NCBI GenBank assembly: GCA_904397815.1
Contig: CAJFOT010000113.1
Coordinates: 16,642 to 80,641 of the forward strand
Reading direction: 5' to 3'
DNA: 64,000 nt
Origin: Candidatus Paralachnospira sangeri
Lineage (GTDB): Bacteria; Bacillota; Clostridia; Lachnospirales; Lachnospiraceae
Shown here: piece by piece, positions 3,881-46,930 of the stretch
Position numbering within the stretch: the stretch's first letter is position 1
Layout: each line of letters begins with the position of its first letter
The notes under the pieces: model-generated
Told to the model about the DNA's origin: nothing
Database searches by the model: none
Seen by the model: only the letters and a program-made list of their open reading frames with translations
Position numbers and translations under genes: made by a program

Positions 3881-4927
3881 TCATCTGTACGAGACGCGCT
3901 CACAAGTCTCGGCGCAAGATCCGGGGAGGGTTCTTTCATCTGATAAAATCTCCCGGAACACTCTCATAACATTTTTATAAAATATTTTTTCAATTTCGGA
4001 TTCAGAAAAACCGGCCCTGCCCATTGCCTCAGCCAGCTGCTGCATCATGGAGCAGTCTCTGATTTCCACCTCACAGTCTATCCCGTCAAAATCTGTTCCC
4101 AGACCTACGCAGTCCATTCCCCCCACATTGGTCATATACCGGATCTGCGCCACCATATCCTCTGTTTTGCTCAGAGACAGGGTCTTTCCCCCGGCTGCGT
4201 CCAGAAACCGGCTGTAGAAATTAATACCGGCCACACCGCCCCGATCCGCCAGACACCTGATCATATCATCCGTCAGGTTTCTCGGATGGGGCGCCAACAC
4301 CCGGGCATTGGAATGACTGGCAATAAACGGCTGGGCGGTGTGACGGGCCACATCCCAAAAGCCATCGTCAGAAAGGTGGGAAACATCTATGATGATACCC
4401 AGCCGTTCCATTTCTTCCAGAAATGCAATGCCCTGATCTTTCAGTCCTCTGCCTCCTGAATGCCCTGCTTCCTGTCCTCCGCCGGACAGCTGCGGATAAG
4501 CCAGTTCATTTTCAAAATTCCATGTCAGAGTCAGCATCCGCACTCCCAGACGGTAAAAGGTACGCAGCAGGCTGACATTTCCCCGGCACAGCCCGCCGCC
4601 TTCGACAGACAGCATGGCAGACAGTTTTCCTTCGGCCCAATTTTTCTCGATCTGATCCGCCGCGGTCACCGGCCGGATCAGATCCTGATTTTTTTCCATC
4701 TCCTGCCAGAACAGATCCGCCTGTTCCAGCCCCGATTCCAGAGGATCTTTCTCATCCGCATCAGAAAATATGGCAAAAGTCTGTACCATATATCCCCCTG
4801 CCTTCATCTTCTCCAAATCGATATGGCATCTGCTGCGCCGCAGTTCTGCGTCCTTTCCCATCCGCCTTAACAGCTGGAGCATCGACAATGTGTCGCAGTG
4901 CATATCCGCCACTCTTACAGCCCCCAT
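3881..4927 (-). CDS. Membrane dipeptidase (peptidase M19)
   Basis: DMHCDT, SVEGG, IDVSHLSDDGFWDV, GLGTDFDGID motifs; start re-assigned to 4927 (RBS ggaggaaaagag) instead of the track's 5158. Confidence 0.85.
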   Translation of the reverse strand: MGAVRVADMHCDTLSMLQLLRRMGKDAELRRSRCHIDLEKMKAGGYMVQTFAIFSDADEKDPLESGLEQADLFWQEMEKNQDLIRPVTAADQIEKNWAEGKLSAMLSVEGGGLCRGNVSLLRTFYRLGVRMLTLTWNFENELAYPQLSGGGQEAGHSGGRGLKDQGIAFLEEMERLGIIIDVSHLSDDGFWDVARHTAQPFIASHSNARVLAPHPRNLTDDMIRCLADRGGVAGINFYSRFLDAAGGKTLSLSKTEDMVAQIRYMTNVGGMDCVGLGTDFDGIDCEVEIRDCSMMQQLAEAMGRAGFSESEIEKIFYKNVMRVFREILSDERTLPGSCAETCERVSYR

Positions 4928-4995
4928 CTCTTTTCCTCCTCCATCCTTTTGATCCGGCCGCCGCGCCGCCCTGCCGCGCCCTGTATGCCTGCTTC

Positions 4996-6558
4996 TTACA
5001 AAAGAGGCGCAAAGACACGCAGCACCATCTGGAACAATCCTTTCCAGAAACCCGGCGTACAGTCCCGCTCTGTAATCTGCCGGCTTTTTTCCTGGGTTTC
5101 CAGAAAATCCCTCTTCACCTGTGCCACCACAGGCGACTCGAAGAAGTAGGTGCCGCATTCAAAATGCAGATACAGGCTTCGGTAATCCGTGTTAATGGTT
5201 CCCACTGTAGCAATTTTATCGTCGGAAACAAAACATTTGCCGTGGACGAAGCCCGGCGTATATTCATAGATTTTCACCCCATAGCGGATTAAGCCCTCAT
5301 AATAGGACTGCGTCAGCAGAAAGACAGCCTTTTTGTCCGGGATTCCCGGCGTGATGATCCGTACATCCACCTGCCGCTTGGCCGCCAGCGTCAGCGCCGT
5401 GACCATATCATGATCCACAATCAGATAAGGGGTAAAAATATAAACATATTTCTGTGCCTGATTAATAATATTCAGGTATACATTCTCACCTGTCGTCTCA
5501 TTGTCCAGAGGGGTATCCCCATAGGGCTGAATATACCCGGTTCCGTCAAAGGGCTCCGGATGCCAGACACGGGGACGGAACCGCTCATAATTATAATCCT
5601 CCGGCCGAAAAGCGTTCCACATATCCAGGAACATCACCGTATAATTCCAGACCGCCTCCCCCTTCAGCATGAATCCATTGTCCTTCCAATGACCATATTT
5701 CACGATCGTATTGATATATTCATCTGCCAGATTGATGCCGCCGCTGAAGGCGGTATGGCCGTCAATCACCATAATCTTTCTGTGATCCCGGTTATTCATC
5801 ACAACGGAAAAAATCGGCACAAAGGGATTAAAGGCAAAGGAGCGGATTCCCATCTCTTCCAGCTCCCAGTGATAATCGCTGGGAAGGCTGGTGGGCAGGC
5901 AGCCGATATCATCATAAATCAGACGCACATCCACCCCTTCCTTTACCTTTTCTTTCAGGATATCCAGAATCCCCTTCCACATATTATCATTGGCGATAAT
6001 GAAATATTCCATAAAGATAAAGTGTTCTGCCTTTTTCAGTTCTTCCAGCATCACCGGATAAACATCGTCTCCCAGAGGATAATAAACTGCCTCTGTGTTT
6101 TTGTACACCGGATAGCCGGTATAATTCAGATATTTGCATTGTCCCGCCACATAAGCGTCTTTTTCCTCTATCTCTCTTAAAATCTCAGGACTCTGAATCA
6201 GCAGACCTTTTGATTTTCTGGCAGCCATATCCAGCTTTCTCCGCATCTTCCTGGCCGGACGCTTTGTCCCCAGAGTCAGATACAGCAGGCCGCCCAGCAG
6301 CGGCAGCGCCATTACTGCCATAATCCATGGGATCTTCAGATCCGGGTTCTGATCCTTGCTGACAATCACCAGAACCACTACCACGCTGAGCACAGAGAAA
6401 AATATAGTGATCGGCACCGAATAATTGGCCAGTTCCCAGAACAGGATAATATACCAGGCAAACTGGAGCACCAGACAGGTACCGAAAATCACGATACGAT
6501 TCATAAAAAGCTTCAGTATCTTCACAAAATGCCTCCTTCGTAACAGCAGTGACAACAA
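4996..6558 (-). CDS. cls: Cardiolipin synthase (two PLD/HKD motifs)
   Basis: N-terminal TM pair plus DHRKIMVIDG and VHGKCFVSDD motifs; start may be a GTG slightly downstream. Confidence 0.9.
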   Translation of the reverse strand: MLSLLLRRRHFVKILKLFMNRIVIFGTCLVLQFAWYIILFWELANYSVPITIFFSVLSVVVVLVIVSKDQNPDLKIPWIMAVMALPLLGGLLYLTLGTKRPARKMRRKLDMAARKSKGLLIQSPEILREIEEKDAYVAGQCKYLNYTGYPVYKNTEAVYYPLGDDVYPVMLEELKKAEHFIFMEYFIIANDNMWKGILDILKEKVKEGVDVRLIYDDIGCLPTSLPSDYHWELEEMGIRSFAFNPFVPIFSVVMNNRDHRKIMVIDGHTAFSGGINLADEYINTIVKYGHWKDNGFMLKGEAVWNYTVMFLDMWNAFRPEDYNYERFRPRVWHPEPFDGTGYIQPYGDTPLDNETTGENVYLNIINQAQKYVYIFTPYLIVDHDMVTALTLAAKRQVDVRIITPGIPDKKAVFLLTQSYYEGLIRYGVKIYEYTPGFVHGKCFVSDDKIATVGTINTDYRSLYLHFECGTYFFESPVVAQVKRDFLETQEKSRQITERDCTPGFWKGLFQMVLRVFAPLL

Positions 6559-6636
6559 TCACTGTGTTAATCATAATATATCCTGAGAAAAGACGCAAGA
6601 CCAGGCCCGTCAAAAAATAGGGGTCTGGTCTTAATT

Positions 6637-7053
6637 TCAGTGCATATTATATTTACTTGAAATCCGCAGTCTGGACATCGCTCTGGCCAATGCCGCCTGA
6701 GTCTGATGGTATTCCTGAATGCTCTGCTTCTGCCGCAGCTGTTCTTCCGCCCTCTCCATGGCCAGCTGGGCACGCTTCACATCGATATCCTCCGGCCGCT
6801 CTGCCGTATCCGCCAGCACTGTCACCCGGTTATTGGCAATCTGGACGAAACCCACACCCACAGCCGCCTCGATCCAGCTTCCCTCCTCTGTCTGGAGCCG
6901 CAGATCCCCGGCGGTAATGGCAATTACCATATTTTCATGATGGGCCAGGATGCCGATCTCCCCGTCCACAGCCGGTATAATCAGCTGGATACATTTTCCG
7001 TCATAAAAAATCTTATCACTGGCGATTACCCGCAGTGTAAACGTACTGCCCAT
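6637..7053 (-). CDS. atpC: F1 ATP synthase epsilon subunit
   Basis: FTLRVIASDKIFYDGKC...GEIGILAHHENM; last gene of the atp operon. Confidence 0.95.
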   Translation of the reverse strand: MGSTFTLRVIASDKIFYDGKCIQLIIPAVDGEIGILAHHENMVIAITAGDLRLQTEEGSWIEAAVGVGFVQIANNRVTVLADTAERPEDIDVKRAQLAMERAEEQLRQKQSIQEYHQTQAALARAMSRLRISSKYNMH

Positions 7054-7078
7054 AAGATGATCACTCCTCTGACCGGCG

Positions 7079-9411
<2,333 letters not shown>

Positions 9412-14671: not shown

Positions 14672-15661
14672 CTAATTCCACATTTGTCGTATTTTTTCCT
14701 GTACTTTTTTGTCTCTGGAGATGGCAAAAAGGATAATGACGCATTTGATAATTCTCTGCCAGTAATAAGGAACCCCCACATATCCCATATAATTCTGCAG
14801 GATTCCCCACAGATAGGCGCCGGCCATCGCCCGCAGCACAGAAGCTTTTCCGCCGGAAATCCGGTTTCCGCCCAGCAGATTGCCGACGATGCCGTCATAG
14901 GCATAGCTGGACCCTGTCGTCATCGAGCCATAGCCCACTCTGGCTGTATAGACAACGCCGATAATGCCCGCCACCACGCCGACAATGCAGTAGTTGATAA
15001 AGATGATCTGTCTTACGTTAATCCCTGCTGCCCAGGCTGTGGACTCCCTGTATCCCGCTGCCAGCAGATATCTGCCGTAAAGTGTATTGTTCAGCAGAAA
15101 CTGAAGCACCGCCGCCACAGCCAACAGAATCCATACATACAGCGGCACATACAAAAATTCACTCTGTGCCAGCGGCTGAAGAGCTGTCGTTCTCAGAATA
15201 AAACCTCCGCTGCCTACAATATAGGACAGCCCCTCAAAGCCAATCTGTGTTGCCAACGTCACATAAAAAGATGCAAGCCCCTTCACCCCTACAAACCAGC
15301 CGTTCACCATTCCCATCAGCAGCCCCGCCGCCACCGGCCCCACTACAGCCAGAGGGACGCTGCATCCTTTATACAGCAATAGCGCACAGGTCATATTGGC
15401 CACCGCGACAGCCGCGCCAATAGACAGGTCAAAATGGCCGGCTGCCATCACCAATGCCACACAGCCACTGACAGCAGCAACCGTAGCAATCTGATTTGCA
15501 ATCAGCAAAAGATTCGAACTGGTAAAAAAACCGGGCGCATACAGCCACGCTGCTGCAATCCCCCCAAAAAGCACCAAAACAAAACGATATTCACGCACCA
15601 CCCGGCGGTTAAAGCCATTTCTCATTATAAAACTGTTTTTCAAAAAACGATATATGCCCAT
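14672..15661 (-). CDS. RbsC-like ABC transporter permease
   Basis: FDLSIGAAVAVANM and LLGGNRISGGKASVLRAMAGAYLWGILQN motifs; start set at MGIYRFLKN. Confidence 0.88.
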   Translation of the reverse strand: MGIYRFLKNSFIMRNGFNRRVVREYRFVLVLFGGIAAAWLYAPGFFTSSNLLLIANQIATVAAVSGCVALVMAAGHFDLSIGAAVAVANMTCALLLYKGCSVPLAVVGPVAAGLLMGMVNGWFVGVKGLASFYVTLATQIGFEGLSYIVGSGGFILRTTALQPLAQSEFLYVPLYVWILLAVAAVLQFLLNNTLYGRYLLAAGYRESTAWAAGINVRQIIFINYCIVGVVAGIIGVVYTARVGYGSMTTGSSYAYDGIVGNLLGGNRISGGKASVLRAMAGAYLWGILQNYMGYVGVPYYWQRIIKCVIILFAISRDKKVQEKIRQMWN

Positions 15662-15704: not shown

Positions 15705-17132
15705 TCACTTTCCATAGCGCAGCAGACCCTGCGGGTCATAAACCTTATCGCAGATCTCCATCGCCTCCTGCTCCCGGTTCATGCAGTACAACACGGCGAT
15801 TCCCCGCTGCCTGCATACATTCAGCAGCTGATACAGATAATTCTTTTCTACCTCGTCCGATGTCTCCAGCACTGTGCTGAGCACCAGCAGGCCCGGCCGG
15901 GCCGCCGCCCAGGACAGCAGAGGAAACATAATATTCCTCAGATGGTCTGTCTGCTGCAGTTCCATAATGGTCTGGTTCGTAGAAATACGCCAGGCATGGG
16001 CATTTTCATCCGCGATAAACCGAAGAATTCTCCAGTTCAGGAATCCCATCCTGGTATGATCCCGATAACTCCTGATCATCAGATTTTCATACACGGACAG
16101 ATCAGGAAAGTTCAAATCATTTCCCTGGGCATAGCTCACACAGCCCACACCATATCTGGAAGGCATCTTCCATTTCCGGGCATCCATCCACCGGTTTTTT
16201 ACCCAGAGGCGCCCCTCCATTGCACGTTCTCCCTCCATTGCCTCAAACAATGCCAGCGCAGTCTGGCTGTCCGCATAAACGCCCGCGATTTCACCCTTAT
16301 GAATTTCCAGATCCAGATACAGCTGTGTCCCGGATACATGAAGCTGTTTCGCGCAGAAAACCAGGTCATTCCGCCTCGGCTTATGCAGTTCTATTGTGGG
16401 ATTTTCTCTTTTTTTCATTAAAATGCTCTGAATCATCTGAGAATCGTAATCCTTCCTGTCCATCACGCCGGCCACTTTTCCTGCCGTAATGATTGCCATC
16501 CGGTCTGCGGCAGCCATCAGGTTGCTGACAGAGGTATCCATGTAAATGACGGAAATATCCATTTCCTTCAATTTTATCAGCCACAGTCGGAAGATGTCCA
16601 GCTCCTCCGTGGAAAATTCCCTCCCCACCTGATAAAAGATCACGATTTTGGCATGGTTGTATATCGCCCTGGCGATTTCCACCTGGCACCGTTCAAAAGA
16701 ACTCATCTCCCCGATTCTGCTGTTCAGAGAAATCGGTATCTCATTTTCCTCCAGGAATTCCATCATCCGCCGCTGCAGCTTCCTGCGGCTGACAAAAAAA
16801 TCCGGACCGGCGAAGGAGTGAATCCCGCCGATATTTTCCGCGACAGTCAGATTGGAAAACAGAGCGGATTCCTTCTGAATCAGGTAAATCCCCTTCTGAC
16901 GGGCTTCCATCATATTTTTAAAGGAAACCTTCTGCCCGTCATACCAGAATGTTCCCGTGTCTGCCTGGTCCTGGCCGCTGAGCAGCTCGCACAGAGACAG
17001 CAGACTGCTGTCGTTCTTTCCCAGAATGCCAAGGGTTTCCATCTCAAACAGCGTCAGAGCCACATGGCGCAGAACCCGCTGATGGTTTTTCCGCTTGCAT
17101 ATATTGTACAGATACAGCAATTCCCTTTTCAT
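15705..17132 (-). CDS. RbsA-like duplicated ABC ATPase lacking catalytic motifs (pseudo-ATPase)
   Basis: Full-length two-NBD layout, but P-loop reads GKNDSSLLSL, Walker B KIVIFYQVG, signature MSSFERCQ, H-switch YMDTS; second NBD equally eroded. Confidence 0.8.
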   Translation of the reverse strand: MKRELLYLYNICKRKNHQRVLRHVALTLFEMETLGILGKNDSSLLSLCELLSGQDQADTGTFWYDGQKVSFKNMMEARQKGIYLIQKESALFSNLTVAENIGGIHSFAGPDFFVSRRKLQRRMMEFLEENEIPISLNSRIGEMSSFERCQVEIARAIYNHAKIVIFYQVGREFSTEELDIFRLWLIKLKEMDISVIYMDTSVSNLMAAADRMAIITAGKVAGVMDRKDYDSQMIQSILMKKRENPTIELHKPRRNDLVFCAKQLHVSGTQLYLDLEIHKGEIAGVYADSQTALALFEAMEGERAMEGRLWVKNRWMDARKWKMPSRYGVGCVSYAQGNDLNFPDLSVYENLMIRSYRDHTRMGFLNWRILRFIADENAHAWRISTNQTIMELQQTDHLRNIMFPLLSWAAARPGLLVLSTVLETSDEVEKNYLYQLLNVCRQRGIAVLYCMNREQEAMEICDKVYDPQGLLRYGK

Positions 17133-17149: not shown

Positions 17150-18142
17150 CTACATCCTGGGTACCATAACCTCCACCGTGGTCCCCACCCCCTCTGTGCT
17201 GAACACATGCAGCCCGTAGCCGTCGCCGAAGTAGTGATGAATCCGCTGATTCAGATTCGACAGAGTATTAGGCACCGCGCCGGCGCTTTCTTTTGCCATA
17301 GACCAGGGTTTGGGATGGTACAGTTCCTGCTGCAGCTTTTCCAGCGCTTCCGGCGGCATTCCCACGCCATCGTCTGTCACCACGATCAGCATCCGGCTCT
17401 GGGTGGCCGTCACCTTCAGACGGATCGTCCCCCCGCCCCGTTTTTTCTCCAGTCCATGCATAATCGCGTTTTCCACGATGGGGGAGAGGGTCAGAACCGG
17501 CAGGATACAGTCCCGCACATCCTCCTCATCATATTCCGCCTCGAAACGGTACAGATTGCCGAAGCGGTACCGCTGGATCAGCATATAGTTGTCCACATAG
17601 GACATTTCCTCCCGGAAGGTGGCCATCTCCCCCGTCCGGTTGATCCGGAACCGGAAGAGCATGGCCAGCGCTTCCACGATATCCACGATGTCCTGCCCGC
17701 CATAATCCAGGGCTTTCGCCCGTATGGTCTCCAGCGTATTATAGAAAAAATGAGGGCTGATCTGGTTCTGCAGCGCGTTAAATTCCGCCTGCATGTGAAG
17801 CATTTTGATCTTATAGGGATTATAGTCCTCCGCCACCAGCTCTTCCAGGGCATGGTCCAGCTCTTCCAGCGGCCGCATACAGTCTTCCAGGGTCACTTTC
17901 CTCGGCTCATCCCCTTCCAGCTTCATACGGATCCAGGACAGTCTCTGCCGGAATGCCCGGAAGAAAAACCAGGCCGTCGAGCACACGGCCAGCACCAGAC
18001 AGAATGTCAGCAGCGCCAGAACCGTCCTGCCGGGCGGCCTGCCGTTCAGGGCCGCTCCCCACACAGAGACCAGCAGGATCAGACATACGGCCATCAGAAA
18101 AAAGAGATGGCCGGGAGCCCATTTTGAAAATTTTCCGTTCAA
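17150..18142 (-). CDS. LytS/YesM-type sensor histidine kinase
   Basis: SPHFFYNTLETIRAKA H-box, SPIVENAIMHG N-box, DDGVGMP G-box; two N-terminal TMs with a very short loop. Confidence 0.92.
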   Translation of the reverse strand: MNGKFSKWAPGHLFFLMAVCLILLVSVWGAALNGRPPGRTVLALLTFCLVLAVCSTAWFFFRAFRQRLSWIRMKLEGDEPRKVTLEDCMRPLEELDHALEELVAEDYNPYKIKMLHMQAEFNALQNQISPHFFYNTLETIRAKALDYGGQDIVDIVEALAMLFRFRINRTGEMATFREEMSYVDNYMLIQRYRFGNLYRFEAEYDEEDVRDCILPVLTLSPIVENAIMHGLEKKRGGGTIRLKVTATQSRMLIVVTDDGVGMPPEALEKLQQELYHPKPWSMAKESAGAVPNTLSNLNQRIHHYFGDGYGLHVFSTEGVGTTVEVMVPRM

Positions 18143-18160: not shown

Positions 18161-19774
18161 CTATTGCGCGTAATATTTCCGGTATTCCGCCGGCTTCACC
18201 CCGGTCGCCTTAAAAAACAGCCGGCTGAAATACTTTTCATCGATATATCCCACCTGCTCCGCCACCTTTTTCACCGGCAGATTAGTCGTTCTCAGCAGTT
18301 CCTTTGCCTTGCCGATCCGCACATTCTGCAGATAGGCGGTGAACTTTTCCCCGGTCTGCTCCTTAAATACAGCGCTGAAATAAATCGGATTCAGGGACAC
18401 CACCTCAGCCGTCTCATTCAGGCCGATCGGCCTGGAATAATTTTCATTGACAAAGGCCTTCGCCGTTTTAATGACTTTGCTTTCACTTCGGTGAAAAAGT
18501 TCATCATAGTAGCGTATCCGCTCTGCCAGCCAGTCCTCCAGCTTCCGTATCACATGCTCCAGGCAGGAACAGTTGTCCAGCACTTCCTGGATGCCCTCCC
18601 CCGCCTCCGTCTCTACGGCGGTATCCGCCATTGAAATCAGTTCCGCCTCTGTCAGTTCCATAAACTGCTCCGCCATTGCGTAATAATAGCCGCCCTTTCC
18701 CTCCGGCACTCTGACAGTCTCAAATAAACGCTTCATCTCCATGACAGCAGCTTCCTCATCCAATTTCTGAAGAGCACCGAAATACCGCTCCATCATCTCT
18801 CCGTTCAGCAGCTTTTCCCCGTTCCAGTACTTCCGGCTTTCATACTCCAGTATCTTACCTGCCCCAAACTCGATCCTGCCATGGAGGGTAATCAGGGCGT
18901 GCAGAAAGGAAAGCGGCGCCTCCGCCAGGGTCTCCTGCCGGGAACCGATGCAGATGGTCGCCGTCAGATGACCTTCATATTTATAATTTTCTTCTTTGAT
19001 ATATATATTGTATCGCTTATGCAGGGTGTCCCACATCTCACTGGTAACATTGTGGCACAGAAGAATATATCCCTTATTTCCATCGGTAATATATTCCATA
19101 TCCGCGCACAGGCTCTCTGCCCCCTGCATCACATACCGGCTCACGTCCCGGGTATATTTACTGACATCCTGAGCTGTGATGCCCTCCTGCCAGTCAAAAT
19201 GATCGATTTTCACCACAATTCCCTGCACATACCGGTAGCTGCCGTCGAAGCAGTCCGGCGACGCGAGAAACTCCTCCGCCGCGTCTGTCATATCCAGCGC
19301 CCGGCTGACCGCCGACTGCAGCCAGCTCTTTTTTCTGACGGAACGGTTTTCCTCATCTATCCTCTGCCTGCGGGCTGTCTGCGTGATCTCCCGCGCCCCG
19401 CTTCCCTCCCGCCGCTTTTCCATCAGTTTCTCCAGCGCTTCCAGGAGCTCTGACTGGCGGATCGGCTTCAGCAGATACTCTGTCACGCCCAGCTTCAGCG
19501 CATGGTAGGCATATTCAAAATCCTGGTAACCGCTGATCATAATAAAGTCCATATCCGGATACCGCTCCTTCATCTGCCGCACCATGTCCAGGCCAGACAG
19601 CTCCGGCATACGGATATCACTGATAACCACATCGGGACGCAGCTGGCTGGCCAGCTCCAGGGCCTCTTCGCTGCTCTGTGTCGCCGCCACGATCTCCATC
19701 TCCGGGCTGGTGATGAAATGTCTCAGTAAATTCAGCACGCTCCGCTCATCATCCACCAATAAAATCTTTATCAT
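18161..19774 (-). CDS. Response regulator with AraC-type HTH (YesN-like)
   Basis: VVISDIRMPELSG receiver phosphosite; C-terminal AraC HTH (VKKVAEQVGYIDEKYFSRLFFKATGVKPAEYRK). Confidence 0.95.
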   Translation of the reverse strand: MIKILLVDDERSVLNLLRHFITSPEMEIVAATQSSEEALELASQLRPDVVISDIRMPELSGLDMVRQMKERYPDMDFIMISGYQDFEYAYHALKLGVTEYLLKPIRQSELLEALEKLMEKRREGSGAREITQTARRQRIDEENRSVRKKSWLQSAVSRALDMTDAAEEFLASPDCFDGSYRYVQGIVVKIDHFDWQEGITAQDVSKYTRDVSRYVMQGAESLCADMEYITDGNKGYILLCHNVTSEMWDTLHKRYNIYIKEENYKYEGHLTATICIGSRQETLAEAPLSFLHALITLHGRIEFGAGKILEYESRKYWNGEKLLNGEMMERYFGALQKLDEEAAVMEMKRLFETVRVPEGKGGYYYAMAEQFMELTEAELISMADTAVETEAGEGIQEVLDNCSCLEHVIRKLEDWLAERIRYYDELFHRSESKVIKTAKAFVNENYSRPIGLNETAEVVSLNPIYFSAVFKEQTGEKFTAYLQNVRIGKAKELLRTTNLPVKKVAEQVGYIDEKYFSRLFFKATGVKPAEYRKYYAQ

Positions 19775-19863
19775 CCGGTTCTTCCTCTCTGTTCAATCCT
19801 TCTATGCCTGCGCAAAGAAAACATATGTTTCAAAAGAGTATCATAACATATTTTCACCATAAA

Positions 19864-19889
19864 GAAAACAGCGCTTCCGCACTGTTTTC
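19864..19889 (-). terminator. Intrinsic terminator-like hairpin downstream of the esterase/liv block
   Basis: GAAAACAG (19864-19871)/CTGTTTTC (19882-19889). Confidence 0.5.
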
Positions 19890-45682: not shown

Positions 45683-46930
45683 TTATTTTGTTGACGCATT
45701 AGGCAGAATCATGAAAATAACAGCCAGGAGTCCGCTGCACGCAGCTGACAGCAGAAAAGTCATGTCGTTGATTCCTCCAGCAATCGGCGTGATCACATAG
45801 GATGGAATCAGAAAAGCTCCCGCCATCATAACGGTACTGATCAGCCCACCGGCAGCTCCCATCTTTACGGGGCCGATTTCCGGCAAAATAGCAGGAATGG
45901 ACATAATCGTAGGTAAAAGCCCGCCCAGGCAGACAGCGCAAATCACAATCAATAGATTTCTCACTGCGGCAGAATCAGCCTTCCATCCCATATACAAAGC
46001 AACTCCGGCGACAACCGACAGTACTGCGCAAACAATCTTTGTATTTCTCTGTTTCCCAATCATCCCAGGCATCACAACGGAGCCGGTCAGGGCCACCAGA
46101 GAAAAAATAATAATCGTCATACTCGCCGCGCCGTCAGACACTCCCTTTGCCACAAGGCCAGGGCTCATCAGCGCAGATACTGACAGATTGACTCCCATAT
46201 AAAGTGCGGCACCCACAGCGGCTACCCAGGTATATTTGCTTTTCAGCACATCACCTAAACCCACCTCGGGACCTGTTCCCGCCTCCGGAATTTCAGTTTT
46301 TTTCTCTTTCACAAATATCAGCCACAGAACTGTCAGAACCGCAAAAACAACACCTCCATAGAGGAAAGCAGTTGACACGTCAGGGGATAATCCTTTTCCG
46401 ATCATCATTGCCAGAATCGTTCCGCCATTACCCGCCGCTACGACGATGCCGATGGCCAGACCCAGCTGTTCCGGAGAAAACCAGGCGCTCATCAGCTTTG
46501 CGTTATTAGAGTTTAATACCGTTCCGGCCACGCCCATCAGAACTGTAACCAGAAGCAGCGTTCCATAAGAGGGAACAAAAGCGCGGGCAACCGCCCCGAC
46601 TGTCGTAATTACCAGCGCGGCAAACACTGTTTTTTTCACACCAATCCTGTCTCCCAGAGTGCCAGACAGGAAGCTGATAAAAACGCCTACCAGCATCGGA
46701 GCCGTCGCAATGGCAGCGTACTGCTGCTCTGTCATGGACAGCGCTTCTCCCGCAGGTGTCAGCGCCACTTTTCTGGTCGTGCGGTCAAACAGGCGGAAAC
46801 CCAAACTGCCTTCCATATTGCTGATATGCTGGCTCATGGCGGTCTGGGTGATCTGACACTCATTTGCCGCTCTTGTAAAATTTAATGTTTCAGCCGCTTT
46901 CACAAAATATTCAATCCCATTAAGATCCAT
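45683..46930 (-). CDS. LysR HTH domain fused in frame to an MFS transporter apparently lacking TM1
   Basis: MDLNGIEYFVKAAETLNFTRAANECQITQTAMSQHISNMEGSLGFRLFDRTTRKVALTPAGEAL then SMTEQQYAAIATAPMLVGVFISFLSGTLGDRIGVKK... Confidence 0.85.
   Translation of the reverse strand: MDLNGIEYFVKAAETLNFTRAANECQITQTAMSQHISNMEGSLGFRLFDRTTRKVALTPAGEALSMTEQQYAAIATAPMLVGVFISFLSGTLGDRIGVKKTVFAALVITTVGAVARAFVPSYGTLLLVTVLMGVAGTVLNSNNAKLMSAWFSPEQLGLAIGIVVAAGNGGTILAMMIGKGLSPDVSTAFLYGGVVFAVLTVLWLIFVKEKKTEIPEAGTGPEVGLGDVLKSKYTWVAAVGAALYMGVNLSVSALMSPGLVAKGVSDGAASMTIIIFSLVALTGSVVMPGMIGKQRNTKIVCAVLSVVAGVALYMGWKADSAAVRNLLIVICAVCLGGLLPTIMSIPAILPEIGPVKMGAAGGLISTVMMAGAFLIPSYVITPIAGGINDMTFLLSAACSGLLAVIFMILPNASTK

Follow-up and report, generated by a model that had tools for sequence, protein, structure and literature searches.

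A four-gene operon on the minus strand of the window (the whole stretch of 64,000 nucleotides analysed here) encodes a response regulator, a histidine kinase without a sensor domain, a tandem-NBD protein of the RbsA type that has lost its catalytic motifs (pseudo-RbsA), and an RbsC-type permease. The first three of these genes were found in the same order, with a sensorless YesM-type kinase and a degenerate RbsA, in the window and in 62 further loci. Pseudo-RbsA is probably a dead RbsA paralogue that has been turned into a signalling subunit linking an RbsC-type permease to the sensorless kinase, and on balance we believe that the Clostridia hold a widespread, undescribed class of signalling complex, in which a permease and a dead ATPase together serve as the receptor for a sensorless histidine kinase. 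The first-pass annotation of the window had drawn attention to the loss of motifs; the widespread kinase-linked module, which it did not notice, outweighs that loss as a result.

The operon in the window

On the minus strand the operon runs from the response regulator (19774-18161) through the histidine kinase (18142-17150) and pseudo-RbsA (17132-15705) to the permease (15661-14672). The YesN-like regulator (18161..19774) joins a receiver to an AraC-type HTH (Pfam Response_reg, 6e-29; HTH_18, 4.5e-20). The kinase (17150..18142; 330 aa), of the YesM/LytS type, matches Pfam His_kinase (1.7e-21) and HATPase_c (8.7e-10); its two TM helices, at residues 13-31 and 41-59, are about 10 residues apart, and no extracellular domain was found in it, nothing of the protein lying outside the membrane. 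Pseudo-RbsA (15705..17132) begins with an ATG 17 bp past the end of the kinase gene, and its 475-aa frame is uninterrupted, as had been noted before. The RbsC/AraH-like permease (14672..15661; Pfam BPD_transp_2, 1.4e-23; AraH model, 4e-45) keeps 29 of 44 conserved RbsC columns; its start was set at an internal ATG (MGIYRF...) by comparison with the corresponding locus of a second genome of the genus (L032), the longer ORF call running from 15739. Neither an SBP gene nor an active ATPase gene was found in the operon. A terminator-like hairpin at 19861-19889 (minus strand; aaaacagtgcggaagcgctgtttt, then tcttt) separates the regulator from an upstream esterase gene and, with a TATGAT just past it, indicates that the operon probably starts there.

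Elsewhere in the window, a single ORF (45683-46930, minus strand) runs from a LysR-type DNA-binding N-terminus directly into an MFS transporter; it may have arisen by an in-frame deletion or through chimeric assembly, or it may be a genuine fusion.

Loss of the catalytic motifs

AraG/XylG/RbsA models match pseudo-RbsA over residues 4-464 (best E 4e-35) and Pfam ABC_tran matches its first half (residues 21-165, E 1.5e-15); as judged from these sequence matches, the RbsA-type homology is not due to chance. The protein thus has the tandem NBDs of about 500 aa and the full-length layout of the CUT2 ATPases RbsA, MglA, AraG and XylG. It differs from them in forming a divergent clade, in its score (121 bits against a curated AraG cut-off of 689 bits, the other RbsA-type models being also far below theirs), in the canonical ATP site, each element of which (Walker A1, Walker B1, switch His and the LSGGNQ of NBD2) is replaced, and in its operon, where the permease is present but a kinase and a regulator stand in place of the SBP.

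The motifs were aligned to those of ordinary RbsAs encoded in the bacterial family to which the window belongs. In NBD1, the Walker A motif GENGAGKST has become GKNDSSLLS (16992..17021, minus strand, as are all of the following; GKNDSSLLSL), with loss of the Lys; the signature LSxxQQQ has become MSSFERC; Walker B has changed from MDEPT to FYQVG (16623..16646; IVIFYQVG), with loss of the Asp and Glu; and the switch ISH reads MDT (16530..16541; MDTS), without its His. In NBD2, the signature LSGGNQQK is replaced by TDHLRNIM (15924..15950; TDHLRNIMF), Walker B and the D-loop by LLVLSTVLETSD (15855..15890; LSTVLETSD for FDEPTRGID), and the switch SSD by MNR. The former P-loop of this domain, GVYADSQTALAL (16248..16283), is non-canonical in ordinary RbsAs as well, which already lack the Lys there (GLVGAGRTE), so that its loss is mostly ancestral. 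The earlier view that both sites are degenerate therefore stands for the motifs of NBD1 and for the second Walker B, but not for the domain-2 Lys; and while the losses it listed are real, it passed over the LSGGNQ signature of domain 2. In RbsA this signature completes the one canonical ATP site, and by the alignment its loss is the most telling of all.

Among 112 conserved columns, drawn from 31 ordinary RbsAs, pseudo-RbsA keeps 4 of the 44 catalytic ones (9%) as against 34 of the other 68 (50%), which shows that the loss of motifs was targeted and not uniform. Residues N100/I101 and N350/L351, invariant in a nine-member alignment, are retained; in ordinary NBDs this segment lies near the permease and has a contact role.

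Selection and fold

A congener, another genome of the genus, carries a protein 76% identical to that of the window (loci L031/L032), with the same gene order of kinase, pseudo-RbsA and permease, and the same residues as the window at Walker A1, Walker B1 and the first switch; when genome contigs were scanned, this copy was the sole match. In a third genome of the genus the window protein has no close counterpart, but a related sensorless kinase is present there, followed by a pseudo-RbsA of its own. Comparison with the congener gave a dN/dS of 0.186 for pseudo-RbsA (NBD1, 0.12; NBD2, 0.26), near those of both its operon neighbours (kinase, 0.146; permease, 0.205). With neutral drift at this divergence about 11 stops would be expected, and none of 1000 simulations remained free of stops. 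At the level of sequence, then, pseudo-RbsA is under purifying selection, and the earlier suggestion that selection favours a non-hydrolytic role gains from these values, from the concentration of the losses in catalytic columns and from the recurrence of degenerate motifs described below.

The predicted structure agrees with the proposed tandem layout. AlphaFold2, run with a ten-row alignment, returned two NBD-like halves (pLDDT 79.5, pTM 0.51; with only two rows the pLDDT was 37). Viral contigs contributed only two full-length RbsA homologues and some fragments, which served to deepen the alignment. On solved ABC ATPases, LptB and CbiO among them, the model of NBD1 superposes at Z ~25, and it is for this domain only that the fold test is sound: NBD2 was modelled at lower confidence, and how the two halves sit relative to each other is uncertain, hence the low full-length TM scores in Foldseek.

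Linkage of sensorless kinases to pseudo-RbsAs

Every locus recovered by an initial search with an ABC profile had the order regulator, kinase, ABC protein, and each kinase lacked a sensor domain. The profile, built from nine kinase-linked ABC proteins, pointed to a rare family present in 9 genomes; the figure was dropped as an undercount, since the more diverged members score below ordinary RbsAs. A search based on the kinase showed a wide distribution. Among 41 PF06580 kinases of four genomes, short frames (330, 347, 351 and 408 aa) occurred only before a degenerate RbsA, the remaining 37 kinases having frames of at least 494 aa. Sensor-bearing kinases accounted for 26 of 30 loci sampled in the same genomes; the next gene was mostly that of a regulator or an SBP, and only once (L069/L090) a degenerate RbsA. 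A kinase profile run against 397 genomes of the bacterial family detected about 100 short kinases, distributed over at least 59 genomes (a count made by eye on the profile listing), kinase length jumping sharply to about 600 aa below a score of about 270 bits; the genome counts are lower bounds, as scoring was limited to the five best candidates of each genome.

In all 39 neighbourhoods chosen on kinase score alone, the next gene was a degenerate RbsA, and the same was true of 13 of 16 further loci, 15 of which lie in different families of the class. For loci picked by the kinase alone, a degenerate RbsA was thus the next co-directional gene in 52 of 55, and over all loci (these 55 and 11 seeds, with members in several families) 63 of 66 conform. 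The distance from kinase to pseudo-RbsA has a median of -4 bp over 63 pairs and is at most 50 bp in 62 of them; such an overlap suggests translational coupling and a stoichiometric complex. A regulator gene lies directly upstream of the sensorless kinase in 63 of the 66 loci, and the other three are at contig edges. The exceptions to the linkage are L199 (G727:C30), where an intact RbsA/RbsC/SBP set comes directly after the sensorless kinase and pseudo-RbsA is absent, which may represent the ancestral state or a loss; L201, whose pseudo-RbsA is encoded on the other strand; and L209, whose pseudo-RbsA precedes the regulator. Conversely, none of 24 intact RbsAs had a kinase as neighbour.

What follows pseudo-RbsA is usually an intact transporter of SBP, RbsA and RbsC, with an intact RbsA lying no more than 6 genes downstream in 39 of the 63 module loci. 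The set of canonical-site residues is missing from 50 of 51 pseudo-RbsAs, and every key residue is kept in all 31 downstream partner RbsAs; several pseudo-RbsAs retain a good Walker A in NBD1. Most begin with M(K/R)xE(I/L)LR, and the Glu of this N-terminus was seen in 11/11 early members as compared to 0/31 ordinary RbsAs. Most module kinases keep the two TM helices, and one of 257 aa (L034) apparently has none at all. A permease follows pseudo-RbsA directly in the window, L032, L131, L138 and L154; beside some pairs (L135, L142, L144) neither permease nor transporter was present within the stretch read, and some neighbourhoods are cut off by the end of the contig. Fragmentary pseudo-RbsA ORFs (151 and 218 aa) occur in two relatives, L152 and L158, and may reflect real decay or assembly errors. 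The gene calls are mechanical, several of the genomes are fragmented MAGs, and the SBP, RbsC, RbsA, kinase and regulator labels of the module loci rest on small local HMMs.

Evolution of the module

A single change on the tree separates pseudo-RbsAs from intact RbsAs (support 99/97 in a careful tree of 42 rows), and this split holds when the long branches are removed and in a FastTree of 110 rows. A single origin of the pseudo-RbsAs is the simplest reading of these sequences, not a proof, no root having been inferred for the tree; its depth is unsure owing to the long branches. The module kinases are likewise split by one change from 21 others, with L090 counted among the module.

Two loci look like intermediates. 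The kinase-linked RbsA of L038 (G133:C26, 9072-10523), which follows a short kinase, is the only one of the 51 with the canonical-site residues; its lone motif change, DEP to DQP in Walker B2, is a substitution in common laboratory use for blocking ATP hydrolysis. In L090 (G133:C36:80000-96000, 4882-8139), a 565-aa kinase that still has its extracellular domain precedes a degenerate RbsA (DDTE in Walker B1, VGGNV for LSGGN), which indicates that loss of the sensor and loss of catalysis are not strictly tied. L131, L138 and L154 display the order pseudo-RbsA, permease, SBP, RbsA, permease, the permease directly after pseudo-RbsA, placed there as in the window, being on a branch of the permease tree other than that of the window. 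A dedicated permease thus accompanies pseudo-RbsA in window/L032 and in L131/L138/L154, two lineages that are distant and long-branched, which suggests that such a permease was recruited repeatedly.

Proposed role of pseudo-RbsA

We propose that pseudo-RbsA, co-produced with the sensorless kinase, would dock on an RbsC-type permease from the cytoplasmic side, at the site of a working ATPase. In the window this would be the dedicated permease encoded in the same operon, and elsewhere probably that of the adjacent SBP/RbsA/RbsC transporter. Pseudo-RbsA would then relay the ligand-dependent conformation of the permease to the kinase, which in turn would phosphorylate the AraC-type regulator and thereby switch on sugar-uptake genes. 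A receptor complex with pseudo-RbsA as its link fits best with the loss of the sensor, the loss of catalysis, the overlap of the genes and the constancy of an RbsC-type permease or transporter. The purifying selection on pseudo-RbsA, its near-obligate linkage to the kinase, the retained N100/I101 and N350/L351 and the split from intact RbsAs in the tree also speak for it. Several observations count against it: the window operon offers neither an SBP nor an active ATPase for a route of the ligand, the L034 kinase without TM helices is compatible with cytosolic sensing, and L199, L090, the fragmentary L152 and L158 and the long branches in the tree also weigh on that side.

One alternative, which we consider unlikely, is that pseudo-RbsA acts in the cytosol, as a sensor or as a regulator of the kinase, and makes no contact with a permease, its altered NBDs binding a sugar phosphate, a nucleotide or another metabolite and controlling the kinase directly. 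Such a scenario agrees with the constant core of kinase and pseudo-RbsA (63/66) and the variable genes downstream, with the L034 kinase, and with those members whose good NBD1 Walker A could bind ATP; against it stand the two TM helices of most of the kinases and the usual presence of a permease or a full transporter in the operon, a separate permease following pseudo-RbsA in two lineages, and no recognisable nucleotide site remains in the window member. Pseudo-RbsA could also regulate transport and not the kinase, by competing with active RbsA for RbsC and so throttling or holding the importer, the shared operon then meaning co-expression only. An intact RbsA is indeed found downstream in the same neighbourhood in 39/63 loci, and the RbsC docking surface could be common to RbsA paralogues; yet it is the kinase, not the transporter, that is the linked and overlapping partner, pseudo-RbsA persists at loci that, like the window, have no active RbsA close by, and the loss of the kinase sensor domains would be left unexplained, all of which renders this scenario distinctly improbable.

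It is very hard to maintain, despite the fragmentary copies of L152 and L158, that a redundant ATPase is decaying neutrally and its frame is open by chance: the dN/dS of 0.19, the expected stops and the recurrence of this gene order across several families (63 loci) effectively exclude it. We give equally little credence to a transporter ATPase that works by some unusual chemistry and imports a substrate with the downstream permease. That permease is the next gene in the window operon, but the Walker A Lys, the Walker B Asp and Glu, the switch His and both signatures are gone, and the operon has no SBP gene.

Should the signalling role of pseudo-RbsA be true, it would provide a concrete answer to what sensorless YesM-type kinases perceive, as well as a route from catalytic subunit to signal transducer with graded intermediates (the near-intact motifs in G133, the kinase sensor domain of L090). 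Annotation pipelines presumably label pseudo-RbsAs as sugar-transporter ATPases on the basis of model matches below the cut-off; such labels would hide a sensory architecture which is apparently common in gut Lachnospiraceae, at least 59 of the 397 sampled genomes having a sensorless kinase.

Comparison with known systems

In the open-access literature searched, no published description was found of this module, or of any ABC ATPase, dead or of the sugar type, that works with a histidine kinase. In MalK-MalT and Pst-PhoR a transporter ATPase, or the whole transporter, relays the state of transport to a regulator; the ATPase of these systems is active and also serves transport, unlike the window paralogue, which as far as its motifs tell is not catalytic. 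In the BceAB-BceRS antimicrobial-peptide modules, a sensorless histidine kinase with two TM helices perceives through an ABC transporter (PMC10314905). The window kinase resembles the Bce type in having no extracellular domain and two closely spaced helices. However, the Bce permease is of the BceB type with a large extracellular domain and that of the window is an RbsC-like BPD_transp_2 protein; BceAB is of the exporter type with an active ATPase, BceA, and the window paralogue has lost the motifs for this; and the window kinase and regulator are of the YesM/YesN type. By analogy, the window module would work like a Bce module, yet it is not one.

In XylFII-LytS-YesN and CuaDSR, an extracellular SBP is the accessory that binds the extracellular domain of the kinase (PMC10384115 and its reference 27). 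These clostridial systems share with the window module a YesM/LytS-type kinase and an AraC-type regulator encoded next to a sugar ABC importer and, if the role proposed here is right, a transporter-family protein as accessory sensor. The window kinase, however, has no domain to which an SBP could bind and its operon has no SBP, so that the accessory would be a cytoplasmic ATPase paralogue instead of an extracellular SBP. Five other loci of our sample (L060, L062, L071, L074 and L077) carry sensor-bearing YesM-type kinases with an SBP gene directly next, and are possibly XylFII-LytS-like three-component systems.
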